IMG/VR virus record: IMGVR_UViG_3300050035_000110
Span: 1 to 26,166 of that record
Source: a virus
DNA: 26,166 nucleotides
Strand: one strand, 5' to 3'
In this document: piece by piece, positions 1,402 through 26,166 of the stretch
Numbering within the stretch: position 1 is the first letter of the stretch
How the letters are laid out: each line of letters opens with the position of its first letter
Program-made: the position numbers and the translations under genes
The notes under the pieces: generated by a model
Databases searched by the model: none
Seen by the model: the letters and a program-made list of their open reading frames with translations, nothing else
Told to the model about the DNA's origin: nothing

Positions 1402-1544
1402 AAAATTCAGAAGATTGCCAAACACATGGTAGGCGAGGTAGGGCTCGAACCTACAACCCCCGGCTTAGAAGGCCGGGGGTTGAACCCTTTTCAGCCGGTG
1501 CTCTAAACACCGACTGCGCCGCTTGGCAATTCATTCTGAATTTT
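1402..1544. other. candidate phage attachment region: inverted repeat enclosing a tRNA-like sequence
   Basis: The sequence at 1402-1421 (AAAATTCAGAAGATTGCCAA) recurs as its reverse complement at 1523-1544 with only two single-base gaps. These arms flank the tRNA-like sequence symmetrically, and the integrase gene starts about 390 bases to the right. Integrases often use tRNA 3' halves as core sites and bind repeated arm sites on both sides, so attP (or a prophage end) is the most likely reading. Crossover position and arm-site use are inferred. Confidence 0.6.
1427..1528 (-). tRNA. tRNA-Arg(UCU)-like sequence, intact 3' part but abnormal 5' half (likely non-functional att core)
   Basis: Read on the minus strand, the 3' part is excellent. 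It has an anticodon stem CCGGC/GCCGG around loop CTTCTAA (anticodon TCT), a five-base variable loop, a T arm GTAGG-TTCGAGC-CCTAC, then CTCGCCT, A and an encoded CCA. The expected 5' acceptor strand AGGCGAG is absent. Upstream lies a D-arm-like stretch ending GAGCACCGGC. It is separated from the anticodon arm by about 22 extra bases that end in a second CCGGC. A normal molecule therefore cannot fold. The best reading is a tRNA 3' fragment captured by the phage as its integration core, with degraded or rearranged tRNA-like sequence on the 5' side. Confidence 0.6.
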
Positions 1545-1937: not shown

Positions 1938-3122
1938 ATGACGCGTATTCCAAAAAATTCATTGAAGAGCACACCGGCCAGCGCGGTGGCCTGCAAAAAA
2001 AGGCTACAACACACCGCCGACCACCATAACTGTCCTGCGTGTATCGAGGCTAACTTGCTTTTGATTCAAATTGATTCAGATTTTTCTCGGTTGCCTTTCA
2101 GTCAAGCGTCCACGCTTTGGATGGTCATACGGAGACAACGCCGGAACCTCAAGCCGCGCACCCACGAATCCAATCAGGGCTACATAGACGCACTGGAGAA
2201 ATTCTTCAGTGCGATCCGGCTTTGCGACATCACCCCCGGTCATTTGCGTGAGTATCAACTCGCGCGGGCTACCAACAGTCTCCACGTCAAAGGACGTGAG
2301 GAGCATCCATGGACCCGCGCCGCCGGGCATTCGATCATCAACCATGAAATCTCCGCGCTGGGCCAAATCCTCAAGCACTGCAAATTGTGGGAGAAGATCA
2401 AACCCTACTATTCGGCGGAGGGCATTCCGAAGTGGAGCCCGCGCGACATTCTTTCAGAAGAGGATGAGGAGGACTTGTTCAGCAAGGCGGCAAGCCATCC
2501 CGAGGCCGCGCTTGCCTACTGGGTCGCGTGCATCACGAACAACACGACGGCGGCCGGCTGTGAGCTGCGCGGCTTGCGGATCAAGAACATCTTTCTACGG
2601 GACAAAGACGACATCTCCGAAATCTACATCCCGGAAGATGCGGTGAAGAATAACTCGCGGCCCCGAAAGATCGCACTGAACCGTACGGCACGGTGGGCGG
2701 TTGAGCAGTGCTACAAGCGGGCGCTGGCGATTGGCTGCACAGATCGGGAGCACTACTTGTTTCCCTTCCGGCTCAACCGGGTGAAGAAAGGTCAGCGGGC
2801 ATCTGTAGGAAATGCCAAGTATGACCCGACGCGGCCGGCAACGCGCTGGTTTCTGCGCAAGAGCTGGGATAAGCTGCGGACGGCTACCGGATTCATACAC
2901 CTCAATCCGCACGACCTCCGGCATCAGTGCATCACGCGCCTCTTGGAAAACGGCGTGGAGCCGGAGACGGTGCGGGCCATTGCCGGCCATGTGACAGAGC
3001 AAATGATGCAGTATTACAGCCATCACCGCCGGCAGACAAAATATGACGCGGTGATGGCCATTGAACTCAACAAAAAGGACCGCATCAAACCGGGGCCGCG
3101 CATGGTGCGCAAATCCGCATAA
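1938..3122 (+). CDS. int: tyrosine recombinase, phage integrase
   Basis: 394 aa. The catalytic set of the tyrosine recombinase family is visible: Arg211 (CELRGL), a basic beta-hairpin residue near Lys244, His325-x-x-Arg328 (HDLRH), His351 (AGH) and the nucleophile Tyr360 in MMQYYSHH. Residues about 55-160 match a SAM-like core-binding domain. The first 50 residues hold a short Cys/His cluster (HHNCPAC) that may bind zinc or an arm site. ATG 1938 follows AAGGGGGG about ten bases upstream. The enzyme would integrate and excise the phage at a tRNA gene; the tRNA-like core and inverted repeat lie directly upstream. It is the only clear lysogeny gene in the window, with no repressor or excisionase recognised, so those may lie left of the window. 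Confidence 0.93.
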   Translation: MTRIPKNSLKSTPASAVACKKRLQHTADHHNCPACIEANLLLIQIDSDFSRLPFSQASTLWMVIRRQRRNLKPRTHESNQGYIDALEKFFSAIRLCDITPGHLREYQLARATNSLHVKGREEHPWTRAAGHSIINHEISALGQILKHCKLWEKIKPYYSAEGIPKWSPRDILSEEDEEDLFSKAASHPEAALAYWVACITNNTTAAGCELRGLRIKNIFLRDKDDISEIYIPEDAVKNNSRPRKIALNRTARWAVEQCYKRALAIGCTDREHYLFPFRLNRVKKGQRASVGNAKYDPTRPATRWFLRKSWDKLRTATGFIHLNPHDLRHQCITRLLENGVEPETVRAIAGHVTEQMMQYYSHHRRQTKYDAVMAIELNKKDRIKPGPRMVRKSA

Positions 3123-3500: not shown

Positions 3501-3833
3501 CTAGGTAGACTCGTCTTCCAGGCCGGCGAAGTAGAACTCCATCATGGCGTTGAAGGCAACGGCGGCGAGTTGATGTCTACGGCTATGGAAGTGATCGTGC
3601 GGTAACCCGGCCAGGTACTCGGCGAAATGGTTCCACGCGTGGTTGGCGATCACCTCTGAATCTGTACGCGCCAGGCTACCGCGCGATTTGTCTCCAGCCA
3701 TAGCGCGTTGGTGGAAGCTATCCTTCCCGTACTTCTCATTCCCATATTTGCCAATTTCATCCATCGCCTCAAGGAACTTGGCGTTGAGGAATTGGTATTG
3801 CGTTAAGGTGCTCTCAAGCACAGCTTGACTCAT
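3501..3833 (-). CDS. MazG/MazZ-like dATP/dGTP diphosphohydrolase-type protein
   Basis: 110 aa from ATG 3833, with GAAGGGGAAAG directly upstream. It shows the layout of the small phage family related to dATP/dGTP diphosphohydrolase N-termini: a tyrosine/glycine motif (KYGNEKYGKDSFH) followed by two helices with His and Asn (IANHAWNHFAEYLAG and RRHQLAAVAFNAMMEF). Proteins of this all-alpha group often act on deoxynucleotides or are uncharacterised homologues. Metal-binding acidic residues are less clear than in true MazG, so activity is uncertain. It is the most downstream gene of the leftward run that begins at the endolysin and may work together with the HD phosphohydrolase at 1-501. Confidence 0.55.
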   Translation of the reverse strand: MSQAVLESTLTQYQFLNAKFLEAMDEIGKYGNEKYGKDSFHQRAMAGDKSRGSLARTDSEVIANHAWNHFAEYLAGLPHDHFHSRRHQLAAVAFNAMMEFYFAGLEDEST

Positions 3834-3872
3834 GCTTTCCCCTTCTTTGGTTTTGTATCGTACGAAACAAAG

Positions 3873-5171
3873 CTACTTACCCGAGCCGCTCATCTGGCCG
3901 GGCAAGATCGAGTAGGTCGCGCCGCCGATTAGAGCCTCAGTCTTCGACCAAACATGAGCCTCGGCAGCACGGATCGATTGGTACATGTTTTCCGCGCTCC
4001 ACGCGCATGGAGGCCGGAGCGATGACAAGATGCGCACAATACACCCAGGCTGTTCGATGGTCCGCTTTTGATGCTTATCGCCGGTGTGCGCCTCGCGCCA
4101 AAGCGTGCGGCCCCACATGGCGGGCTGTTCGGCGGCCATCGTCTTGCCGTAGTCTTCGAGCTTGCCGGCGTTCCCATGCGTCAACATGAGCATGTTGACG
4201 CCGTACTCCCACCACTTCCGCTGGGTGGGAGCATTGTCAATCGTCACGCGGGGATTGTTGCGATACCACGCGGAAAGCTCTTCACCCAGGTGCCACGCTG
4301 CTAGCGGATCGTGATTGCCGCGCACCACGGGCACGTGGACGCGGAGGCCCCTGGCCAACATCTGATCGATAGCCCACTTGGTGGCATCGCGCGAGATCCC
4401 GTACACCTTTTCGTAGCGCGTATCCATCGATTGCAGGGTGCCCTTTTCGGTTGTGCCGGCGCGATTGTCCGCGTTCTGTTGATCGTTGCCGATCACAAAG
4501 AGCGCGCCCTCAGGCTTGAAAGAGGCGGTGCGATCCAAAAGGCTAGAAAGCGCCTGGCCCCAGCAACGCTTGGCAATCGCGCAATCGTAATCGTCGTGGC
4601 CGGTTTCCTTGGCCCAGATCAGCGCGCCAAAGTGGTGATCGTAGAGGGACGGCTCAACCCACACGCCGGAGCTGTACTGCGAACGCATCCGCACGATGTG
4701 CGGGAACTTGGGAGCGTAGCGCGCGGCCTCGGCTTTGAAACGCTCTACCTCATCCTTGAGGCGTTGCACTTCGACTTTCTTTTTGAGCCAAACCTTGATC
4801 TGATACAGCGGCTCAACGATGATTCCCCGGAGCCGGCCGTCGCGCTTATCCGCCGCGCCCACTTCCCACTTATTGCAGACGTACCGCTCCACTTCCCAAA
4901 GGTCGCGGTCCACCTCGCAGAACTTCAACAGCTCATCGAGCGTGTGGATGCGCGTCTTTGGCATGGAAATGACGCGGCTATCCTTGCTCATATCGTCGGT
5001 GACGGTCTGCGCGGGCTTGGCATCGGCGCGCGGGCGCTTGGCGTCCTCCGGCATGTAGCGCAACACGGTGGTATCGTGATGGCCTACGAGCTTTGCAATC
5101 TGACGAGACGACTTTCCCTCGCGGGCTAGGCGTTCAATCTTGTGCCGCGTGCTTGCGGAGACGGTTGGCAT
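3873..5171 (-). CDS. phage HTH-metallophosphoesterase
   Basis: 432 aa. The start is ATG 5171, where the upstream stop overlaps as TGATG; the frame extends further but overlaps the previous gene. Residues 1-45 form a resolvase-like HTH (TRHKIERLAREGKSSRQIAKLVG). A coiled-coil stretch (KKKVEVQRLKDEVERFKAEAARYA) lies near residues 130-155. The rest is a calcineurin-like phosphoesterase with the expected metal motifs in order: DHHFG, GNDQ, RGNHDP, THGN and HTGDKH. Such proteins are frequent in phages and are annotated only as phosphoesterases; nuclease or nucleotide substrates are possible. The N-terminal HTH suggests DNA targeting. Family assignment is secure, the biological role is not. Confidence 0.82.
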   Translation of the reverse strand: MPTVSASTRHKIERLAREGKSSRQIAKLVGHHDTTVLRYMPEDAKRPRADAKPAQTVTDDMSKDSRVISMPKTRIHTLDELLKFCEVDRDLWEVERYVCNKWEVGAADKRDGRLRGIIVEPLYQIKVWLKKKVEVQRLKDEVERFKAEAARYAPKFPHIVRMRSQYSSGVWVEPSLYDHHFGALIWAKETGHDDYDCAIAKRCWGQALSSLLDRTASFKPEGALFVIGNDQQNADNRAGTTEKGTLQSMDTRYEKVYGISRDATKWAIDQMLARGLRVHVPVVRGNHDPLAAWHLGEELSAWYRNNPRVTIDNAPTQRKWWEYGVNMLMLTHGNAGKLEDYGKTMAAEQPAMWGRTLWREAHTGDKHQKRTIEQPGCIVRILSSLRPPCAWSAENMYQSIRAAEAHVWSKTEALIGGATYSILPGQMSGSGK

Positions 5172-5464
5172 CAGTGCCTCACGATGGTGACGATGTGATA
5201 GACCAGATCGGCACTGACAGCCACCACGGCGGCAATGCGCAGAATCATCCACCACGCGCCGGCTCCGCGCTGTTTCAAAGATTCGAGGCTATCGATCCGT
5301 TGCTCGTGATCGTCAACCTGCATTTCCAGGCGTGGCACGCGGCCGTGCGAGTTCTCGGCGGTCGCATCGCCGAACAGCTTGGTAAGTGTGTCGCGAAGAT
5401 CGCCGCGCATACCGCGCACCTCATTCGTCAATTCGTGGATGGCGGTAGTGTCATCGAAAGACAT
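5171..5464 (-). CDS. holin-like protein: coiled coil plus C-terminal TM segment (XhlA-like)
   Basis: 97 aa from ATG 5464, preceded by AGGGAG at seven bases. A longer frame to 5494 has no ribosome site. Residues 1-60 are polar and heptad-like (LEMQVDDHEQRIDSLESLKQ). Residues about 70-92 are a single hydrophobic segment (WWMILRIAAVVAVSADLVYHI) followed by a short tail. The same design, an N-terminal coiled coil and a C-terminal membrane helix, is seen in XhlA-type phage lysis proteins. Its position two genes after the endolysin supports a role in lysis. Its stop overlaps the phosphoesterase start, so the two are coupled. It could equally be another small membrane protein. Confidence 0.5.
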   Translation of the reverse strand: MSFDDTTAIHELTNEVRGMRGDLRDTLTKLFGDATAENSHGRVPRLEMQVDDHEQRIDSLESLKQRGAGAWWMILRIAAVVAVSADLVYHIVTIVRH

Positions 5465-5494
5465 GGCATAACTCCCTAAGTTCACTATGCCCAC

Positions 5495-5534
5495 AAACCC
5501 AAAGGCCCCGCGAGTTAGCGAGGCCTTTGGGTTG
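5495..5534. terminator. strong stem-loop between unknown gene and holin-like gene
   Basis: Arms AACCCAAAGGCC (5496-5507) and GGCCTTTGGGTT (5522-5533) pair perfectly, with a further CGC/GCG pair inside a short loop. It lies just after the stop of the gene ending at 5549. No T-run follows on either strand, so it may be a Rho-type boundary or an mRNA stability hairpin, not a classic intrinsic terminator. Confidence 0.6.
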
Positions 5535-5548
5535 TGAATGATGCGAAC

Positions 5549-5914
5549 TTACTGAACGTCCGCCTTGACTTCGGCGTACAGGGACTCCACGAGCGGAATG
5601 AACGTGCTCTTGAAGTAGTTGAAGAATGCCTCGGCGTCTGCAAGGGCCTTGGCATCGTCGGCAAGGTTGATGCCCTTTTCTGCCGTGGCCGTGGCGACGT
5701 CGCCAATCACGCCGGTGGCCTGTTTCACAAGGCCCAGCACGGCCGTCTTGACTTCCGGCGAATCCTTGACCGCTGAGGCAATCACCGCCTCAGCCTTGAC
5801 ACAGAACTCGATGGGGTGAACGATGGCAAACTCGACGGCCTTCTCGACGCCCTTGCCCACATCCTCGGCACCGACCTTGACATCGTGCCCGATAGTTTCA
5901 AAAACATTGCCCAT
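5549..5914 (-). CDS. small helical phage protein of unknown function
   Basis: 121 aa from ATG 5914, with AAGGAAGG about nine bases before it. The frame is open upstream to 6055, but that portion overlaps the endolysin and lacks a ribosome site. The protein is Ala/Val/Lys-rich, starts MGNVFETIGHDVKVGAEDVG and appears to be amphipathic helices throughout. A single Cys lies near residue 30. No signal peptide and no clear TM helix. It sits between endolysin and holin-like gene, so a lysis-linked role is possible, but nothing in the sequence proves it. Related proteins are common as hypothetical genes in prophages. Confidence 0.65.
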   Translation of the reverse strand: MGNVFETIGHDVKVGAEDVGKGVEKAVEFAIVHPIEFCVKAEAVIASAVKDSPEVKTAVLGLVKQATGVIGDVATATAEKGINLADDAKALADAEAFFNYFKSTFIPLVESLYAEVKADVQ

Positions 5915-5961
5915 GCGAATAACCTTCCTTTGGCCTGTTGGCCGGTTGATGGTTGAGGTTG

Positions 5962-6408
5962 TTATTTTGCCGGGATATGCCCGGTCCAAAGTTGGTACTC
6001 CGCCTCGCGGCGTGTCTTGAGCGCCGCACACTCCTTTGCGTCGGCGTGATCCCATTGCAAGAGCTGGAGGGCAGCCGCATCCGATTGCCCCGCGTTCAAG
6101 TCTTTGAGCAGCGTGGAGCTTGCCAGCCGGCCCTGGCCCAGGTTGAACACGAAATCAACCAACGCATCGAACTGCCCTTGCGTGAGCGCGACCCGCGCTA
6201 TGCGCGCAACAGCGCCCTCGGAGATGGCCACGTCGCGGCTCAATATCACCGTGGCTTCCGCCTCAGTGATTCCGTTGGGATAGCTTTCGCCGGGCAACAG
6301 GCGGTGACCGTAGCCGATGGTCGGAATGCCGGCAACGTCCAAATACGCGCTGCCACGAAAGCCCTCGGATTGTTTCAACAGTGCAAGCCCGGCCGCGCTC
6401 AGTTGCAT
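5962..6408 (-). CDS. T4-type lysozyme endolysin (GH24)
   Basis: 148 aa, the usual length of lambdoid GH24 lysozymes. The catalytic triad is present with T4 spacing: Glu15 in SEGF, Asp24 in AYLDVAG and Thr30 in PTIGYGH. The second signature, LTQGQFDALVDFVFNLG, lies at about residues 75-91. It cleaves the MurNAc-GlcNAc bond of peptidoglycan at the end of the lytic cycle. There is no signal or SAR anchor at the N-terminus (MQLSAAGLALL is too short and too early), so release through a holin is expected; a holin-like gene lies two genes downstream. ATG 6408 has GAGG at a seven-base spacing. Confidence 0.93.
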   Translation of the reverse strand: MQLSAAGLALLKQSEGFRGSAYLDVAGIPTIGYGHRLLPGESYPNGITEAEATVILSRDVAISEGAVARIARVALTQGQFDALVDFVFNLGQGRLASSTLLKDLNAGQSDAAALQLLQWDHADAKECAALKTRREAEYQLWTGHIPAK

Positions 6409-6548
6409 CGTTCAACCTCATCTAAACATCCCAGCGGCATAGACCCGCCGCCGGGAACCCTGTCTAGCCTGAGTGTGGCGCGGATCACGGAAAGCGGGCC
6501 ATTTTGGAGGCAGGGTGGGCAATCACTGGCGCGTTGCCGATAACGAGT

Positions 6549-6560
6549 TATACTGCGACC
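6549..6560 (+). promoter_or_regulatory. -10-type element before secreted gene 6574-7017
   Basis: TATACTGCGACC lies 13 bases before ATG 6574; a GGGGTGA ribosome site sits between. The same 12 bases, with one change, precede the Imm gene (15770-15781). No clear -35 box is seen at the right distance. Confidence 0.45.
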
Positions 6561-6573
6561 CTTGGGGTGAACG

Positions 6574-7017
6574 ATGAAGGCTTTTCTTTTTGCTCTTGTC
6601 TTGGTTTTCGCCAATGCGGGCTTTGCGCAGTCTTTGGCGGACGCGCCTACACCGCACCTTGACCGCGCGCAATGGGCACTCCTGGCCACCGATGCCGCTG
6701 CAAGGGGACTTGATGTGTACTCAACACATTGGGCGGAAACGGCGGGCAACAAAGAGGGAACGCTACCGGGATGGATTGCCAACCATCCGCCGGTAATGGC
6801 CCTCTACTCCGGTGGGATGGTCTACGCGCAATATTGGGTGGCGCGGAGGCTGTCCGCTCACCGTCACCGCAAGTTGGCCTATGCGATGACGGCGGCCGAC
6901 ATATCGATCACTGCCCCGTTTGCGATTCACAATCTATTTCTACCTGTATGCAAGGCCCCGGATGTGTATCTCTCCACAGGGTGCCAGGCTCCCGTGCCCG
7001 GCGTGATCTACAGGTGA
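6574..7017 (+). CDS. secreted protein of unknown function (moron-like)
   Basis: 147 aa on the strand opposite to the lysis and tail genes, flanked by the endolysin and the fibre gene. The N-terminus is a clear Sec signal peptide (MKAFLFALVLVFANAGFAQ, cleavage probably after Ala18 or Gln19). The mature part starts with polar residues, holds ALLATDAAARGLDVYSTHW, a weakly hydrophobic segment (VMALYSGGMVYAQYWVA) and two Cys near the C-terminus (PVCKAP and STGCQAP) that could form a disulfide in the periplasm. It has its own -10-like element and ribosome site. Opposite strand, own promoter and export signal are all typical of a lysogenic-conversion (moron) gene. No known family is recognised. Confidence 0.75.
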   Translation: MKAFLFALVLVFANAGFAQSLADAPTPHLDRAQWALLATDAAARGLDVYSTHWAETAGNKEGTLPGWIANHPPVMALYSGGMVYAQYWVARRLSAHRHRKLAYAMTAADISITAPFAIHNLFLPVCKAPDVYLSTGCQAPVPGVIYR

Positions 7018-7026
7018 TTGCCGGCC

Positions 7027-9204
7027 TTAGAAGACGCGCTGGAGCAACAATGTGCTCCCCACATATGATTGAAACGTAGCAGCGGACAAAGACGATTGCA
7101 GGTAAAAAGTCAGCGTGTGCGTGCCCGCTGAAAGCCCGGTCAAGCTGAGAATGAAGGCGTTGGACTGTGTGCCGTTTAACGTGGCATAGCTCACGGATAT
7201 GGACTGATTGAAATTTCCGTCCACGTATAGGTTGACGTTGCAAGTGGTTCCCACTGTGCCCGCCGTCTGCCCACCCGAGAGCGCCCCAAACATATTGAAC
7301 GTGTCCGCCGTGGATGCGGCGGTCACGCTGCAAGTCAGCCCTGCGATGGCCGTGCCTGGATTCCCGGCCCCGCTTGTGGTTGCCGTGGCTGTTTGATGGA
7401 GCATTGAGGTCTGCACGCGGGAGGCCGTGGTCAGAGCGGTGCCGTCAGCAAAAAGCACCTTGGATGCGCTCAGCGTGCCCGTGGTGATGTTGCTTGCGTT
7501 GAGGTTGGTTACAGCAACGTTGGCCGCGTTGAGCGTGCCTGTCGTAATCATGCTCGCGGTGATGGCCCCGGCCGCAATCTTTGACGCGGTAATGGAGCCA
7601 TCGACGATCAGAGAGGCATCATTGCAGCGGCGAAGCGTGAACGCACCCATGGAGATATTGCCCCCGGAGCCTACAGGGTTCGAGCCCTGACTTCCGATTG
7701 CAACATAGGCGGCGTTGGCGGGAGCGGGGGCGGATACGGAGCTAAGAATCCAAGCTCCGCCCGTGATCACAACATTCCCGGTTGGGTTCGTGAGTAGGTT
7801 CTTGTTGCTATCAAAAAATGCAAGCCACACGAAGCCGCTGCCTGAAGTGAGGTTGTAAACGTTGATGTACGCCTCACCGTAATAAGACTGCCCTTGCGTG
7901 CAGGAAACGTAGTTTAGATTGCTGCATGACGATGAGCTACTCCCGGCAAGAAGAGCGACGTAGCCTCCATGGCCGTTAGGTCCGGAAGCCACGGCCTCGC
8001 TTGCTGGCGTACAGACACAAAGGCCGAGTGCCCAATTATTCGAGCCATCAGAGAAGTCGTAGTTATAGGCAAGGTTGGTCAGGTCCGCGACGACTAGCTT
8101 GCTTGCTGCGATTGACCCCGCTGCAATCTGTGTGGCACCAATAGCACCCGCCGCAATCTGTCCCGCCGTGATGGTGCCCGCCGCGATCTGTCCCGCCGTG
8201 ATGGTGCCCGCCGCGATCTGTGTGGAGGTAATCGCATTGGCCGCAATCTTGTCGCCTGTGATGGTAGCAGCCGCGATGTTCGACGCCTGAATTGTGCCGG
8301 CGGCGATGTTGGCGGCGGTCACCGTGCCGGCCGCAATCTGAGTGGACGTGATGGCCCCGGCTGCGATCTGTGATGCCGTGATGGTGTTGGCTGCGATGGT
8401 TGCGGCGGTTACGGCCCCGGCCGCGAGTTGTGGCGTGCTAATGGACCCGTTTGAAATCTGAGTGCCAGTGATTTGTCCCGTGAGTTGCGCCGCGCTGATC
8501 GATGCAACTTGGGCGGAGGTGAGTTGCCCTGTAACCTGGGATGCGGCCACACTGGCAATCTGCGCTGCTGTGAGCGTGCCGCTTATGTCCGGGGCGGATA
8601 CAGTGAGCGGCGTCCATGCACTGCCTGTGCTGCGGTAGAGCTGCCCGTCTGCCGTGTTCCACACTAAGCGCCCGGACGGATAGGTTGCATTGGGCAAAGT
8701 GGGGAGACTCGACACCACAACGGGAGCCAGGCCCACCGCTGTAATTGCCGCGTTCATTTTGTTCGTTGCATCCGTGGCCGCCGCCGCGATTGCGGTCGTC
8801 TGTGCAGCCGCCGCCTGTGCATTCGAGATAACCGATTGCAACGCCGTGCGCTGGGTTGCCACCTGTGCCCATAGGTTGGCCAGTGATGTTTGTATGCCGG
8901 GCCACGGGCCGCTCGTGGTGCCATCCGGCCAGGTGGTTGCCCAGTTCGCCGGGGCACCGGCATTGATGAGCGCCGTACTGATTGCGGCGACCGCGTTGTC
9001 ATAGAAGGTGCTCGATACGCTCCACGTTGAAGTCAACGTGTCCAGCGAAGTCTTCATGGCCAACTCAGCGGTGTACTGCGCCATGAGGTTTATCTTGTCC
9101 TGATTGGATAGGTAGTTGACGTTTTCCGGGTCGCTGCCAATCGTGGTGGTTGTCGGTACTAGGCTGATCGAGCTTCCTGTTTCAGTCCAAGGGCTATTAG
9201 GCAT
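7027..9204 (-). CDS. tail fibre / receptor-binding protein with decapeptide repeats
   Basis: 725 aa from ATG 9204, with GAGGAG five bases upstream; it overlaps the end of the tip gene by eight bases. The N-terminus (about 1-190) is polar and Ala-rich with a coiled-coil stretch. Residues about 200-370 are tandem ten-residue repeats of the type IAAGTITAxQ, and a second shorter block lies at about 540-590. Between them is a domain (about 375-530) that starts NYDFSDGSNNWALG and has four or more Cys, resembling a carbohydrate-binding beta-sandwich. The last 120 residues form another beta-rich domain ending LLLQRVF. The place after the I-J tip gene is where lambda carries its side and central fibres. 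The repeats probably make a trimeric shaft and the two beta domains may bind host surface glycans. Confidence 0.8.
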   Translation of the reverse strand: MPNSPWTETGSSISLVPTTTTIGSDPENVNYLSNQDKINLMAQYTAELAMKTSLDTLTSTWSVSSTFYDNAVAAISTALINAGAPANWATTWPDGTTSGPWPGIQTSLANLWAQVATQRTALQSVISNAQAAAAQTTAIAAAATDATNKMNAAITAVGLAPVVVSSLPTLPNATYPSGRLVWNTADGQLYRSTGSAWTPLTVSAPDISGTLTAAQIASVAASQVTGQLTSAQVASISAAQLTGQITGTQISNGSISTPQLAAGAVTAATIAANTITASQIAAGAITSTQIAAGTVTAANIAAGTIQASNIAAATITGDKIAANAITSTQIAAGTITAGQIAAGTITAGQIAAGAIGATQIAAGSIAASKLVVADLTNLAYNYDFSDGSNNWALGLCVCTPASEAVASGPNGHGGYVALLAGSSSSSCSNLNYVSCTQGQSYYGEAYINVYNLTSGSGFVWLAFFDSNKNLLTNPTGNVVITGGAWILSSVSAPAPANAAYVAIGSQGSNPVGSGGNISMGAFTLRRCNDASLIVDGSITASKIAAGAITASMITTGTLNAANVAVTNLNASNITTGTLSASKVLFADGTALTTASRVQTSMLHQTATATTSGAGNPGTAIAGLTCSVTAASTADTFNMFGALSGGQTAGTVGTTCNVNLYVDGNFNQSISVSYATLNGTQSNAFILSLTGLSAGTHTLTFYLQSSLSAATFQSYVGSTLLLQRVF
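8161..8220. repeat. two identical 30-bp direct repeats inside the fibre shaft
   Basis: 8161-8190 and 8191-8220 are identical base for base. They encode two consecutive decapeptides of the shaft. Neighbouring units are diverged, so this looks like a recent duplication of one unit. Confidence 0.9.
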
Positions 9205-15799: not shown

Positions 15800-16165
15800 A
15801 TGCGACGGATAATCTTGGCAGCATGTTTGATGTTTATGGCAATCCCGGCACTGGCTGACAAGGACGATGCAGCGCGCGCCGCACAACGCCGCGCAGAGGC
15901 GCAACAGCAAATTACTTATGCCCAGTCCAGTGACACAGTACAGCCCCACCATATCGTTTTGATTGGGATAGTAGGGGTGATTTATTTTCTTCCCCTTTGG
16001 GTGGCGTTTACACGCAAGTGCAAAGCTGGCGCAGGGATCGGCGTGGTGAACCTTTTCCTGGGTTGGACATTCATCGGCTGGGTTGTGGCACTGGCCTGGG
16101 CTGCGTGCGGGGAGCCAAAGCCGAATGCCCCCAACCTGCCTAGTGGTCAGTCAGTGTCGGCTTGA
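15800..16165 (+). CDS. superinfection immunity (Imm-like) membrane protein
   Basis: 121 aa. A signal peptide (MRRIILAACLMFMAIPALA) is followed by a charged, Gln-rich stretch and two hydrophobic segments: residues about 51-70 (IVLIGIVGVIYFLPLWVAF) and about 77-104, the second containing NLFLGWTFIGWVVALAWA. The motif N-x-x-LGWT-x-IGWV-x-AL-x-W and the preceding IYFLP are the signature of the Imm_superinfect family (related to T4 Imm), which blocks DNA entry of related phages at the membrane. Its position on the opposite strand with its own -10-like element fits a moron expressed during lysogeny. The short periplasmic N-terminal part is unusual. The 3' end overlaps the end of the convergent DUF2846-like gene by 26 bases. 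Confidence 0.85.
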   Translation: MRRIILAACLMFMAIPALADKDDAARAAQRRAEAQQQITYAQSSDTVQPHHIVLIGIVGVIYFLPLWVAFTRKCKAGAGIGVVNLFLGWTFIGWVVALAWAACGEPKPNAPNLPSGQSVSA

Positions 16166-16538
16166 GCTTGGCTACATCAAAGGCCCCTTGCTCTGGCATC
16201 ATCATCGTCAGCCGAAAGTGACCTTTCCAGAATCCGGTCTGAAGATCAGTCCGAAAGAAATACTCTTTCCCCGGCTCAAGCGTGACAACGGCACCGGCTT
16301 GTTTATCTTCAGCGTAAAACGTGTGCGGCCCCGGCGACAGCCTCACATCGAACACTGTGCCATTCTGAATCCTCCCAACCTCAGCCCCATCGCAGTAAAT
16401 CGAAGGCTTGAGGAGGCTGCCTACATATTGCTTGTAGCGGTAAAAATGGACCGTGGCATCCGCAACAGATGCCTGTTGCGCATCGCAGACAGCGCACAGA
16501 GAACAAAGGGCACACAAGAACAACAGAGTTTTTCGCAT
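16140..16538 (-). CDS. secreted DUF2846-like protein (moron-like)
   Basis: 132 aa from ATG 16538. An in-frame ATG at 16547 lies within the -10 box, so the later one is preferred. The signal peptide (MRKTLLFLCALCSLCAVCDA) is followed by a beta-rich domain with YRYKQYVGSLLKPSIYCDGAEVG and LSPGPHTFYAED, the usual layout of DUF2846 proteins (small secreted beta-sandwiches of unknown function). It sits at the end of the tape measure gene and is convergent with the Imm gene. Own promoter, export signal and accessory location suggest expression in the lysogen. Function not known; surface or periplasmic role is inferred. Confidence 0.7.
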   Translation of the reverse strand: MRKTLLFLCALCSLCAVCDAQQASVADATVHFYRYKQYVGSLLKPSIYCDGAEVGRIQNGTVFDVRLSPGPHTFYAEDKQAGAVVTLEPGKEYFFRTDLQTGFWKGHFRLTMMMPEQGAFDVAKLKPTLTDH

Positions 16539-16545
16539 GGGCAGC

Positions 16546-16551
16546 ATTATA
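16546..16551 (-). promoter_or_regulatory. consensus -10 box, likely leaderless transcript
   Basis: TATAAT on the minus strand, seven bases before ATG 16538 and with no Shine-Dalgarno sequence between. The start codon would lie close to the transcription start. The -35 region is not recognisable. Confidence 0.5.
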
Positions 16552-20693: not shown

Positions 20694-20830
20694 TAGAAAT
20701 GCCTGCCTTTCCCAAAGCACTCACGAAAGCATGTGTGAGTGACATGCCACCGGACACGCCAGGTTGTGCGGCTTTGAAGAGCGCCGGTGAGCGCGCCGAG
20801 AAAGATAAAGAGGCGATTGGTAAAGCTCAT
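20693..20830 (-). CDS. 45-residue protein coupled on both sides, unknown function
   Basis: A frame from ATG 20830 to TAA 20693. The start overlaps the SSB stop as TGATG, and the stop overlaps the next ATG as TAATG. Such coupling at both ends strongly supports a real gene. The product begins MSFTNRLFIFLGALTGALQ, a hydrophobic stretch that could be a short membrane helix, and ends with a basic, Cys/His/Trp-rich tail (TWRVRWHVTHTCFRECFGKG). It may also serve mainly to couple translation from SSB to the tail terminator. No family recognised. Confidence 0.6.
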   Translation of the reverse strand: MSFTNRLFIFLGALTGALQSRTTWRVRWHVTHTCFRECFGKGRHF

Positions 20831-21216
20831 CAGAACGCCTCGCTGTACGCTTCGTCGGGCACTTTGGCCGGGCCGGCGTCCTTGCTGTCGAGCAACACAA
20901 GCTCCTCGGCAACGATGTTGGTTTTCCAGCGTTTCTGTTGGGTGTCGTCTTCCCAGGAGATGGTGCGGAGGCGTCCGGAGATGTAGACCTTGGAACCCTT
21001 GCGGAGATAGTCACGGGCGATTTCAGCCAGGCGGCCAAAGAAAATCACCGAATGCCACTCGGTGTGATCTTCCCATTTATCGCTGTTGGGAACTTTCTTC
21101 CGTTCGTTGGTTGCGATGGAGACCGTCGTCCGCTGTGTTCCATTTTGCGAGGCCTTCGATTCCGGCGGCTGGCCGACGTTGCCGAGTAGGGTAACTGAGT
21201 TCACGCTCTTGCTCAT
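20830..21216 (-). CDS. ssb: single-stranded DNA-binding protein (OB fold)
   Basis: 128 aa from ATG 21216, with AAGGA about ten bases upstream. OB-fold SSB signature: VNSVTLLGNVGQPPE, TVSIATNERKKV, WHSVIFFGRLAEIARDYLRKGSKVYISGRL and a final NIVAEELVLLD. The C-terminus is short and ends DEAYSEAF, an acidic tail with terminal Phe but without the classic DDDIPF. It coats single-stranded DNA during replication or recombination. It is out of place: SSB normally belongs to early replication genes, but here it sits in the late head-tail operon between the FII-like gene and the U-like gene. Being translationally coupled to the next gene, it is expressed with tail genes. Confidence 0.92.
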   Translation of the reverse strand: MSKSVNSVTLLGNVGQPPESKASQNGTQRTTVSIATNERKKVPNSDKWEDHTEWHSVIFFGRLAEIARDYLRKGSKVYISGRLRTISWEDDTQQKRWKTNIVAEELVLLDSKDAGPAKVPDEAYSEAF

Positions 21217-21276
21217 TGTTGACGTTCCTTTCAACGTGCGACATACGGTTGGTTGTTTCGGTAATCATGGGAACCT

Positions 21277-21955: not shown

Positions 21956-23986
21956 TTACGAGATTGCGATGTAGGGGTTAGCTGCGAATGCCGCGATGTG
22001 CCGGCAAGCAACGTCATGCAGCGCGCGCTGGGTGACAACAATCGCGCCGCTGGCGGCCTGGGTGTACGGATCGACAACCACCTCACGCGCGCCCCAATCG
22101 GCAACAATCAACTGGCTCCAATCGCCAAAGACGGCGTTGTGCAGGATGGAGCCGGCTACGCCCGCCTTGGTTCCGTTCTTGGCGAGCTGGTTGGTGACGG
22201 CCGCGCGATAGCCGGCGGGGCCTTCCGTGTCGATGCCGAGCGGATCGCGAGGTCCGTCGCCCCACACCGGGATCGCATAGCCGGAGGGGAACTTGGCGGT
22301 GTTGCGGAGCTGGGCGCGCACTTCCGGCGTGAACATGAATCCCGAGGTGGTTACATCCGCGTTCGCGGCGGCAACGGTGGATTCAAACGCCAGAATGTCT
22401 GCCCAGGTAAGCGGCTTGCCGCCGTCACCGAATGCGGAGCCGGAGGGCGAGAGCAGCGTGAGTCCGGTGATGTTCATCAGGCCAACCGGGTTTGCGCCGC
22501 CGGTGGGACCACTGAGCGCGGCCAGGTCAAGGGCAAGCATGATTACCTTGTCCTGATCGGCGCGGGCCAGGCCCTCGATGTCGGGCGCGGTTTCCGCCAA
22601 CAGTTCGACGGTCCATGCGGTCTGCGCGGAGATGCGGTGCGGAGTCACGGAGATAAAATCCATGGAGAGGTCGGCGGGAGTAACGGCCGCGCCTTCACCC
22701 ACCCACTGTGCAGTGCCGGCACCGGACTGGCGGGGCAACCGGATGATGCCGGTCAATCCACCCAGGCGGCGCGCGCCAAGCTGCTCAACGCGCGGACGAT
22801 TGCGCAGAATCTCGATGACTTCCGGCCGCGTGTAGGTTGCCACGGCGGCGGCCTCGGAGGTTACCGCAATCTGACCGGCTCCGCTACCGATGCCCTGCGT
22901 ACCGAGAGCGCGCGACATGGAGTCCGGAATCAGCGGGCCTTCCGTGGTGATCTTGAGGCGCTTTTTCAGTTCATCGCTGAACTCGCGCTCAAGGGCCGCA
23001 TCGCACAGGCTGGCAGAGAACGAGCCGGGGCGGGCCGCATTGGTGAGTGAACGAACCAACCGGAACACGGAGAACCGCTTCTGATCGGACTTATCCATCT
23101 CGCCGAAAAGGTTGCTGCCGGCGGTGCCCACCTTGCTGGCATCGTTGGCGGCGCAAATCTTGCGCGAGACCAGATCGCGGAACTTATCCGAGGAGGTGTT
23201 GTCGGCGATGGCTTTCTGAGCCTCGTCAATGGTGACGTACTTGCGGAAATCGGAATCGGTCGCAACGGCCATGATGTCATTGCGCCGCGCAAGCTCAAGT
23301 TCCGCTGCGGTTTTCTCAGCCGTTTCGGCCATGTTTCTTTTCTCCTGTTTCGGTTCGACAACGATTGCGGGTTGTGCAACGGGAGCCGGATCGACGCCCC
23401 GCCGCAAGACGGTTTCAATTTCAACCGGAAAGTTTTGGTCGCCGGATTCCGAGCGCCCCGCACCGACCGTGGTATCGGCGGGCACGGTAACAAGCGATGC
23501 GTCGAACGGCTCCCAATCGGTTACGCGGCATTCGTCGGGTGCATCGGGGTTATCCTCATCCTCAGTGCGCACCATCTTGTGAACGCGGTAACCAACGGAT
23601 GCGGACGTAAGAATCTTGTCGTCGTAGTCCTGGCGCTTTTCCTGCGCAAACGCCGAGCGGCTGAACGGCCCCTCAACCACAAGCCGGCCATCTTTGATTT
23701 CGTACTTGTCAACGACGCCGAGTTGTTTGTTGGGATCGTGATTGAAGTTATTGGGAACCTGGCCGGAATCGAGGCGATCTGTGCGAATGCTCTTCTTATC
23801 GTGCTGAAGAATCTCATTCGCCGCACCCTCCCAATAATTCCGCAGATACGGAGTTTCACTGGAGACGGCAAAGCGAAACCGGCCCGGATCGGGGCCAGAC
23901 AGCCGTTCGCCCTCTTTCGGCTCCGCATCGATTTTCGCGGCCCGATACTGCATCGGAAGCGCCGCCGGTATGCTCTTAGTGCTCAT
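21956..23986 (-). CDS. prohead protease - major capsid protein fusion (HK97 type)
   Basis: 676 aa from ATG 23986. An upstream in-frame ATG (24055) is rejected because the extension crosses a terminator hairpin. Residues about 30-175 are the S78-type prohead protease: His83 in NFNHDPNKQLG, the Ser region SASVGY (128-133) and WEPFDASLVTVPADTTVG. Residues about 176-290 are a linker and helical scaffold-like segment. The rest is an HK97-fold capsid protein (LGTQGIGSGAGQIAVTSE, LPRQSGAGTAQWVGEG, NPVGLMNITG, and DWSQLIVADWGAREVVVDPY near the end). In-frame Met219 (ATG 23332) has AGGAG nine bases upstream, so free capsid subunits of 458 aa may be made from the same message. No separate protease gene exists in the window. 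Confidence 0.88.
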   Translation of the reverse strand: MSTKSIPAALPMQYRAAKIDAEPKEGERLSGPDPGRFRFAVSSETPYLRNYWEGAANEILQHDKKSIRTDRLDSGQVPNNFNHDPNKQLGVVDKYEIKDGRLVVEGPFSRSAFAQEKRQDYDDKILTSASVGYRVHKMVRTEDEDNPDAPDECRVTDWEPFDASLVTVPADTTVGAGRSESGDQNFPVEIETVLRRGVDPAPVAQPAIVVEPKQEKRNMAETAEKTAAELELARRNDIMAVATDSDFRKYVTIDEAQKAIADNTSSDKFRDLVSRKICAANDASKVGTAGSNLFGEMDKSDQKRFSVFRLVRSLTNAARPGSFSASLCDAALEREFSDELKKRLKITTEGPLIPDSMSRALGTQGIGSGAGQIAVTSEAAAVATYTRPEVIEILRNRPRVEQLGARRLGGLTGIIRLPRQSGAGTAQWVGEGAAVTPADLSMDFISVTPHRISAQTAWTVELLAETAPDIEGLARADQDKVIMLALDLAALSGPTGGANPVGLMNITGLTLLSPSGSAFGDGGKPLTWADILAFESTVAAANADVTTSGFMFTPEVRAQLRNTAKFPSGYAIPVWGDGPRDPLGIDTEGPAGYRAAVTNQLAKNGTKAGVAGSILHNAVFGDWSQLIVADWGAREVVVDPYTQAASGAIVVTQRALHDVACRHIAAFAANPYIAIS
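23330..23346 (-). promoter_or_regulatory. internal ribosome binding site and start for free capsid protein
   Basis: Inside the fusion gene, CAGGAG lies nine bases before an in-frame ATG (23332) at the start of the helical scaffold-like segment (MAETAEKTAAELELARRND), where separate HK97-type capsid proteins usually begin. Confidence 0.65.
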
Positions 23987-24008: not shown

Positions 24009-24038
24009 GAAAAAGGCCGCCAATTTCGGCGGCCTTTT
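24009..24038 (-). terminator. intrinsic terminator between secreted protein gene and protease-capsid gene
   Basis: Stem AAAAGGCCGCC / GGCGGCCTTTT (24011-24021 with 24028-24038), six-base loop, T-run on the minus strand and also T's on the plus strand. It lies 25 bases before the fusion start at 23986. Confidence 0.88.
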
Positions 24039-24058: not shown

Positions 24059-24859
24059 TCAGCGGGCAGACACCTGCTGATAGCTGTAGAAATCGACCGT
24101 GTAAACGTCGGCGACGGAGCCGCCCGTTTCAACCACGTCGAACATGGGCGAAAGTACGACAGTGGGTAAGGTTGCGGTAAGGGTCGAACCGGCGGCGCCG
24201 ACCGTTACCGTGGAAGATGCCGGGGTGGTTGTGTCCACTACCTTGAAAATCACGGTGCCGGACACGTTGCTTGTAAGCCAAAACTGAACCCAATCGCCGG
24301 CGGTGGGAGCAACGCTTGTGGGCGTGCAGCTCTCGACGCCTGCTGAATCCGAACAGGCATTGATGAAAGTATCGGTTCCGTTGAGAAAGCGGAAATACAC
24401 GCCATTGGTGGGAATCGCGGTGATGCTATCGACCGTGCCAAACCCGACACGATAACTCCCCGTGGAAATCTGATTGACCTCCATGATGCTTTCCGTTTGC
24501 CAATTGGTCGTGTTGCCGGGGAATAGAATCCCCACTGCGTGTCCGAGGGATAGGTATACGCCCTGAGTCGCGGTGGTTGTGGTGGTGAGCGCAACCAGGC
24601 ACGGATGATTGGCGACGGAGGCAACCGCGCCAGACGTGGAAAGGGTGCCGACGATCTGCGTCAGATCCCAGCCATAATCGCCGATGGTGGTCGTGGTGGA
24701 CGGGGTTGCGCCGCAGAAATCCTCCTGGATGGCCGGGGTGGACGGGACGCTGTAAACGTAAGTGCCGTTGGTGTTTTGTCCGACGGGAACCTGAGCAGAT
24801 GCCGCCAGTGCCAGCGCGCAGATTGCGATCAAACCGAATACAGAAACTTTCAGCTTCAT
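24059..24859 (-). CDS. secreted beta-rich protein inside the head gene cluster, unknown function
   Basis: 266 aa from ATG 24859 with a very strong site (AGGAGG, four bases before ATG). The N-terminus is a clear Sec signal peptide (MKLKVSVFGLIAICALALAASA|Q). The mature part is Thr/Val/Gly-rich and looks like a concanavalin- or lectin-type beta-sandwich (YGWDLTQIVGTL, GILFPGNTTNWQTESIMEVNQISTG, GVYFRFLNGTDTFINAC, GDWVQFWLTSN). Four cysteines in the mature part could make two disulfides. It lies between portal and protease, in the same direction, and a terminator follows. Possible roles: an exported factor that binds sugars on the host, a virion decoration, or an acquired host gene. Not recognised as a named family. 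Confidence 0.72.
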   Translation of the reverse strand: MKLKVSVFGLIAICALALAASAQVPVGQNTNGTYVYSVPSTPAIQEDFCGATPSTTTTIGDYGWDLTQIVGTLSTSGAVASVANHPCLVALTTTTTATQGVYLSLGHAVGILFPGNTTNWQTESIMEVNQISTGSYRVGFGTVDSITAIPTNGVYFRFLNGTDTFINACSDSAGVESCTPTSVAPTAGDWVQFWLTSNVSGTVIFKVVDTTTPASSTVTVGAAGSTLTATLPTVVLSPMFDVVETGGSVADVYTVDFYSYQQVSAR

Positions 24860-24904
24860 ATTCCCTCCTCGGGAGTTTTGGTTGGGACCGTTGGTTAGGC
24901 GGCG

Positions 24905-26166
24905 TTACTCCTCTTCTTTGGTCAACTCCCACAGTGCCGCATTGGCGGGGTGCATTCCGCGCTCAAGACTCCGGCCCGGCTTCACTTTTGGTTTGGCCGG
25001 TGCGGGCTTTGTGTTGGCCTTTGGCTTGGCTGGCTTGGTTGTGCCGGGAGGGGCGGGCTTTTCTTCGTTGTCCTTTGGCTCTGCGCCGGTGGCATCTTCC
25101 GGCGTCTCATCTTCGTTATTGATTTCGCTTGTGCCCTGGCCGCGAATATCGGTGCCAAGCGCGATGCCTAATTCGTCCGCAAGTTCCTGTTCACGCGCCA
25201 GCGCCGTGTAGGTTTCTTCCAGATCCCGGCCGACGCTGTTGAGGATGCTTTCGTGCGTCTCAAAGCCGTTCTGCACAAGCAACGTATTCGCCTGCACATC
25301 TTTCAATGGATCGATCCAAGGCCAGCGGCGCGGCTCCCACTTGATGAACTCACCGCAGAACCGCTTGCGATCCGCAAAGGGTAGGGCGATAGCTTGATTG
25401 AGCAGACCAGCGCCGAGCCAGGCATCGTAGATAGGCTCCGTGACGTTATCGATAAACGAGGTCTGCATCTCCATCCAGAACTCACGTACCTCCATCTCGC
25501 CAATACGCGCGGAGCTGTAATTGACGCCGCTCAGATCGTTGAACAGCGAGTGATAGGGAACGTTGAAACCGGATGCGATCAGCCGGCCCGATTGCTTGGT
25601 GAACGGGTCAAAGGCGTTGGTGGGATGGGTTGGGGTGTGATTGTTGAGCGTGGCCCCGGTGCCCGTGAGGTCGAGGGCGCTGCCAATGCCGATGTCGATA
25701 GCCTTGGAACCATCGGCGTTGATGCCGTCGCCTTCAATTTCATCGGCGTCGGGATCGGCATCCTTGGCGGTCTCGATGGACATCACCATGGAAGCGCCGA
25801 TGCGCGCGGCGGCCAGCTCCGCCTGGAAGTATCCGTCAAGCATCCGCAACTGGCCCATGCCGGAGGCCATCCACGGATAACCGCGCGTCTGTCCGGTGCG
25901 GTGGGCAACGATCCAGTGAATGATTTGATCGGCGGGCACGCGCACGCGGTTAGACGAGCCGAACGACGCCTCATACGGATTGCCCTGAAAGATGTGATAG
26001 GCTAGCGCCTTTTGATTGGCATCCACCTCGACGCCCATCCGTATCTGCGTTCCATCGGCGCGGCCCATGAGGTTGTAATTGTCGTCAAGCTGATCGGCGT
26101 CAATGAGCTGTATCTGAAAGCCGAACGGGTTGACGGTTTTGGGCACGTAGACTTTGCGGATAAGCT
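24905..26166 (-). CDS. portal protein (lambda gpB type), 5' end outside the window
   Basis: 420 residues of the C-terminal part are visible; the frame continues through the right edge (LIRKVYVPK precedes the first internal Met), so the N-terminus is missing. Family marks: IQLIDADQLDD, GVEVDANQKALAYHIF, VPADQIIHWIVAHRTGQTRGYPWMA, GQLRMLDGYFQAELAAARIGA, then YHSLFNDLSGVNYSSARIGEMEVREFW. This is the lambda-type portal (dodecameric ring for DNA entry and exit). The last 80 residues are Pro/Lys/Thr-rich and low in complexity (GTTKPAKPKANTKPAPAKPKV), longer than usual. Terminase genes should lie to the right, outside the window. Confidence 0.9.
   Translation of the reverse strand, partial: LIRKVYVPKTVNPFGFQIQLIDADQLDDNYNLMGRADGTQIRMGVEVDANQKALAYHIFQGNPYEASFGSSNRVRVPADQIIHWIVAHRTGQTRGYPWMASGMGQLRMLDGYFQAELAAARIGASMVMSIETAKDADPDADEIEGDGINADGSKAIDIGIGSALDLTGTGATLNNHTPTHPTNAFDPFTKQSGRLIASGFNVPYHSLFNDLSGVNYSSARIGEMEVREFWMEMQTSFIDNVTEPIYDAWLGAGLLNQAIALPFADRKRFCGEFIKWEPRRWPWIDPLKDVQANTLLVQNGFETHESILNSVGRDLEETYTALAREQELADELGIALGTDIRGQGTSEINNEDETPEDATGAEPKDNEEKPAPPGTTKPAKPKANTKPAPAKPKVKPGRSLERGMHPANAALWELTKEEE

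Follow-up and report, generated by a model that had tools for sequence, protein, structure and literature searches.

A signal-bearing gene between the portal and capsid genes

The window (the whole 26,166-nucleotide stretch analysed here) comes from a 26-kb IMG/VR virus record that encodes a tyrosine integrase, which makes a temperate phage likely. The group to which this phage belongs probably comprises temperate soil siphophages infecting Acidobacteriota; a prophage-like region of Acidobacteriaceae bacterium TAA 166 encodes a 33% identical capsid. A tRNA-Arg gene located near the integrase gene is a candidate attachment site. The features discussed below are as follows.

1427-1496, minus strand: tRNA-Arg
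1938-3122, plus strand: tyrosine integrase
21956-23986, minus strand: protease-capsid fusion gene, downstream border (phrog_617, 1.1e-88; PF05065, 5.8e-28; start taken from relatives)
24011-24038, minus strand: terminator-like hairpin, part of the capsid leader and 24 nt upstream of the capsid start (compensatory stems in seven loci)
24059-24859, minus strand: gene for a predicted exported lectin-like cargo protein of 266 aa (ORF; payload unique among 44 contigs with both flanks)
24077-24730, minus strand: putative lectin-like jelly-roll domain, residues 44-261 (86.3 bits to a chromosomal profile; relatives match PF22237)
24794-24859, minus strand: Sec signal-peptide-like leader, residues 1-22, predicted cleavage ASA|Q (heuristic score; likeness to module B, a cargo protein of related phages)
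24864-24870, minus strand: ribosome-binding site GAGGAGG (from sequence; conserved in relatives with module B)
24905-26146, minus strand: portal gene, upstream border, with its 5' part running off the window (TIGR01539, 6.6e-73; PF05136, 2.9e-57)

The initial annotation had described a signal-peptide protein between portal and protease-capsid genes, with a strong ribosome site and four cysteines. We confirmed that the ORF lies on the minus strand, between an upstream portal of the lambda type and the protease-capsid fusion, with both flanks matched by profiles. The GAGGAGG directly before the ATG is a near-perfect Shine-Dalgarno sequence. The four cysteines are located in the mature part of the protein, and one more is present inside the signal.

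The N-terminus, MKLKVSVFGLIAICALALAASAQ, contains two lysine residues, an 11-residue hydrophobic core with a mean Kyte-Doolittle value of 2.9, and the ASA|Q motif. The basic n-region, the hydrophobic core and the small-x-small motif of a Sec signal were all found by a simple heuristic score, which was used for all signal calls here rather than SignalP, and the leader would be cleaved on export. Only three other genes in the window had a comparable heuristic score: those for an Imm_superinfect protein and a DUF2846 protein, and the gene at 6574-7017. No lipobox was apparent in the 266-aa protein. No sigma-70-like promoter was found in the region of the ORF, and expression in a lysogen is therefore doubtful.

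The portal-capsid gap in related phages

About 60 related loci were retrieved with the capsid and portal proteins as queries. Both flanks were present in 44 contigs, many of which are near copies of one another and do not represent 44 independent events. The distance between portal and capsid ranged from an immediate junction (L023, L024, L025, L029, L032 and L056) to 4.4 kb (L013). A signal-bearing ORF was present in the gap in 35 of the 44 contigs; 34 were identified by the gap scan, and the remaining one is L144, in which module A overlaps the portal end and was counted as signal-bearing cargo. The gap was empty in 6 of the 44 contigs, and three further gaps contained no signal-bearing ORF.

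The cargo at this site was module A, module B, an N6/N4 DNA methyltransferase or the lectin-like gene of the window, the last of which was found in the window only (1/44 contigs). Module A proteins are 288-1314 aa long and carry a signal and a conserved N-terminal part; their C-terminus varies, with repeats of the jelly-roll-like, collagen, CBM5/12-like or YadA-like type. Module B is a signal-bearing protein of 143 aa. The methyltransferase (PF01555, 2.1e-19) is a frequent gap cargo (7315-7998 in L002, and also in L008, L019, L125 and L144) and is possibly a defence-evasion gene. In L013, the plus-strand gene at 3564-7487 encodes a 1307-aa signal-bearing cargo protein that shows, by eye, long trimeric-adhesin (YadA-head-like) repeats and gave no Pfam match.

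The portal of L036 is 96% identical to that of the window, yet its cargo is a collagen-bearing module A. L124, L125 and L144, phages with a capsid identity of only approximately 33%, have module A and the methyltransferase at the same place with approximately 69% and 78% identity, respectively, which suggests exchange. Other phages carry module A elsewhere: L127 has it after the head-tail connectors, L139 before a terminase-like gene and L142 beyond the tail genes. Mobile cargo behaves in this way. The AF2 model of module A had a pLDDT of 58. Its best PDB match was a weak one to a cyanophage tail fibre (E 0.008), and the viral proteins that it matched, at low TM-scores, were of the tail and minor-tail kinds.

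The window gene itself lies between conserved phage genes and is replaced or absent in relatives, as is expected of a moron. These comparisons point to the portal-capsid gap as a swap site for signal-bearing cargo, with both export and swapping well supported.

A retained leader and an exchanged payload

Residues 1-36 of the 266-aa protein are 44-49% identical to the module B leader region of relatives. At the DNA level, the window and L008 are alike over the portal-to-ATG stretch, the ribosome site and the first codons, and then diverge. Searches of IMG/VR, GTDB genomes and INPHARED phages gave no full-length relative of the protein, and in the related phages the match was confined to the leader. 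The simplest reading is that the payload was swapped behind a retained export leader. Conservation of the leader while the payload is swapped lends further weight to the earlier description of the protein as exported, and on these sequence features we consider it very probably an exported cargo protein.

The payload domain and its chromosomal relatives

The window protein gave no direct family or PDB match in the libraries searched, Pfam included. A profile was then built from 13 chromosomal Acidobacteriota domains with the window excluded. Residues 44-261 of the window protein scored 86.3 bits (E 4.4e-25) against this profile, compared with 12.6 bits for the best of 1000 shuffles, and no other ORF in a set of 3899 viral ORFs matched it; the scored sequences exclude the window, and the profile members were first located by window-seeded searches, which introduces some circularity. 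The identity of the window protein to the chromosomal members is only 15-24% over the full alignment. Within the class of Acidobacteriaceae bacterium TAA 166, the domain was detected in 8 of 399 genomes by single-sequence search and in 16 of 399 by profile search.

Three of the relatives (L091, L093 and L100) exceeded the cut-off of PF22237 (SO2946-like_C), and the window protein itself did not match PF22237 at E up to 5, so that its predicted link to this family is transitive, via the relatives only. The profile of the payload domain family also matched neurexin and laminin G domains weakly. The profile evidence points to, and does not prove, a concanavalin-like jelly roll as the payload fold; an AF2 model from the single window sequence had a pLDDT of 30 and was discarded. 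In the alignment of 14 members, two columns carry cysteine in an identical set of four sequences, which is the pattern expected of a disulfide.

The chromosomal relatives mostly start with a signal-like sequence, and in the regions examined the gene that follows mostly encodes a secreted protein, some 1000-1300 aa long. Many copies in these regions adjoin exopolysaccharide genes (Pfam-confirmed in selected loci), with exosortase EpsH, UDP-glucose/GDP-mannose dehydrogenase, polysaccharide flippase, O-antigen ligase, UDP-GlcNAc 2-epimerase and glycosyltransferases among the neighbours. The occurrence of the domain in secreted Acidobacteriota proteins, and in exopolysaccharide loci, favours both the lectin-like character and the capture of a host gene that the initial annotation had proposed. 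The domain protein, its 1000-1300-aa partner and the exopolysaccharide/exosortase genes together resemble an undescribed surface operon (L087, L088, L107-L110 and L113); two of the partner proteins were searched against Pfam and gave no match.

Related domains were also present in phage proteins. Those of the podovirus-like phages L116, L118 and L119 are without signal and represent a weaker relationship. Another genome of the order contains a prophage that encodes a 384-aa domain protein (48 bits) with a signal-like start, directly downstream of a J-like tail-tip gene.

A conserved hairpin in the capsid leader

The conserved start of the capsid gene is 23986 and not 24055, because the stretch upstream of 23986 contains a stop codon in a relative. 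The hairpin at 24011-24038 has a 12-bp stem followed by a U-run (-21 kcal/mol, z -3.0). Seven loci retain it (the window, L013, L015, L017, L031, L058 and L061), each at 23-25 nt upstream of the capsid start, and the stems of 11-12 bp differ in sequence yet remain complementary, which argues for selection on the hairpin structure. Given the constant distance, the hairpin is best read as belonging to the capsid leader. There is no room for a promoter between the hairpin and the capsid gene, so that transcripts arriving from upstream can express the capsid only by way of read-through, antitermination or RNA processing. Since capsid transcription from upstream must cross the hairpin, the proposal that a terminator isolates the cargo from the capsid gene is untenable as written. 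The hairpin possibly acts within a leader by which the capsid mRNA is tuned or processed, rather than terminating the cargo transcript. Loci with the methyltransferase retain mainly its 3' arm.

Possible functions of the predicted exported protein

Our preferred reading, to which we give an even chance, is a cargo site for exported fibre- or lectin-like proteins that bind host glycans and hinder adsorption. At such a moron-like site, the strong ribosome-binding site and the Sec leader would be kept and the payload exchanged, the window payload being one putative lectin-like jelly-roll domain. The protein would probably be made with the late genes and then exported; disulfides would probably stabilise it outside the cytoplasm, where it would probably bind glycans of the host surface or of exopolysaccharide. 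Fewer receptors would then be free, and the phage would most likely benefit in that superinfection, and the re-adsorption of its progeny to cells and debris, would decrease. The parts of this explanation obtained by computation are the gene, the leader, the swap site and the domain family. Glycan binding by the window protein is somewhat favoured, and a block of adsorption by it is put forward tentatively. The presence of Imm_superinfect in the same phage fits a phage that invests in exclusion.

The window payload showed no detectable similarity to the phage's own tail-tip proteins, which argues against simple receptor mimicry, a mechanism that would predict likeness. For module A, the C-terminus was found at one place per record; mimicry of the phage's own fibres was found for neither payload. 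A bolder version of the proposal, which we regard as doubtful, is a dedicated export slot of very high variability within the head operon. Fibre or lectin domains of the receptor-binding type, detached from the virion, would be sent through Sec to the host surface to occupy glycan receptors late in infection, as a diversifying control of adsorption with a cargo turnover like that of tail fibres.

Other roles can be considered for the same gene. A lysogenic-conversion adhesin, which would mainly help the lysogen to bind exopolysaccharide or soil surfaces in aggregation or biofilm, would suit the integrase, the chromosomal relatives in exopolysaccharide loci and the precedent of PblB (PMC4508584), but the gene lies within the late head operon and has no detected sigma-70-like promoter; this role appears rather unlikely. 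The protein could also be a passenger, a piece of a host gene brought in by recombination from which the phage gains little or nothing, given that the payload occurs in 1/44 contigs (this phage only), that the domain is common to host chromosomes and that a modular junction follows the leader. Such a passenger is very improbable, as the ORF is intact with a strong ribosome site, the paired cysteines are retained at low identity, and the site repeatedly carries intact exported genes in other phages.

An accessory virion protein, namely a fibre or head decoration with a hydrophobic N-terminus that joins virions late, for example after lysis, is improbable in our estimate. Head assembly is cytoplasmic; the cysteine pairing suggests an oxidising compartment; the gene appears dispensable, as the site is empty in 6 contigs, and unrelated replacements have only the export leader in common. 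These points outweigh, in our view, the location among head genes, the related domains in phage proteins without signal, the prophage member that adjoins a J-like gene, and the resemblance of module A to tail fibres. The head decoration suggested earlier is disfavoured by the absence of the gene at the site in all near relatives, where nearly every replacement is signal-bearing. Head decoration was rejected as the leading idea: a conserved companion of the capsid would be expected in relatives, none of which has the gene at the site, and six sites are empty.

Comparison with known systems

PblB of streptococcal prophages is tail-fibre-related, has a predicted signal peptide and a galactose-binding C-terminus, and acts at the cell surface (PMC4508584). 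It would be the nearest known case in function, as both proteins are phage-encoded with a predicted signal peptide, and carbohydrate binding is proposed for the window protein. PblB is, however, a large tail-morphogenesis protein of phages with Gram-positive hosts, whereas the window protein is small, is encoded at a cargo site within the head operon and has no indicated tail role; it consists of the leader and the lectin-like domain only, and a PblB-type tail-fibre-related N-terminal part was not found in it. The secreted Acidobacteriota proteins L091-L103 share the signal-like start and the homologous domain, but they are about 330-710 aa long, have their own N-terminal domain and are chromosomal, often in exopolysaccharide loci and followed by the secreted 1000-1300-aa protein.

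T5 Llp and the Cor proteins of phi80 and N15 are small exported superinfection-exclusion lipoproteins that stop adsorption via outer-membrane receptor proteins. The window protein is likewise small and predicted to be exported, but it shows no apparent lipobox, and its domain is lectin-like. Lambdoid morons are similar in being extra genes between conserved structural genes and absent from relatives; they differ in that the window gene has no detected promoter of its own and the adjacent hairpin is part of the capsid leader.

Both morons and surface proteins encoded by prophages are already known. None of the open-access papers searched describes a constant position among head genes at which a leader is reused, time and again, for Sec-exported cargo of the fibre or lectin-like kind, and a term search for such proteins gave no match in PMC11924767, which deals with viruses of cultured Acidobacteriota. 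From an odd ORF, the analysis arrives at a rule that can be tested, namely that in this phage group exported fibre- or lectin-like proteins are swapped in the gap between portal and capsid genes, and links a phage payload to exopolysaccharide loci of the likely hosts. The cargo suggests that these phages dress or mask the host cell. Acidobacteriota are abundant in soil, and few studies have addressed their phage receptors or superinfection control; if receptors are masked, the site would readily supply proteins for glycan binding and adsorption control in this phylum.

Several other genes of the window were recorded. The Imm_superinfect protein (15800-16165, plus strand; PF14373, 4.8e-14) and the DUF2846 protein (16140-16547, minus strand; PF11008, 2.2e-9) are both small and signal-bearing, and their genes adjoin the tape-measure gene, forming what appears to be a second cargo spot for envelope proteins. 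The gene at 6574-7017 (plus strand), opposite the tail genes, encodes a small signal-bearing protein of unknown family, with a homologue in the related phage L142 near 7139-7864 (minus strand). A gene for single-strand binding protein (20830-21234, minus strand; PF00436, 4.8e-31) is located within the head-tail gene block, and relatives retain it in that block.
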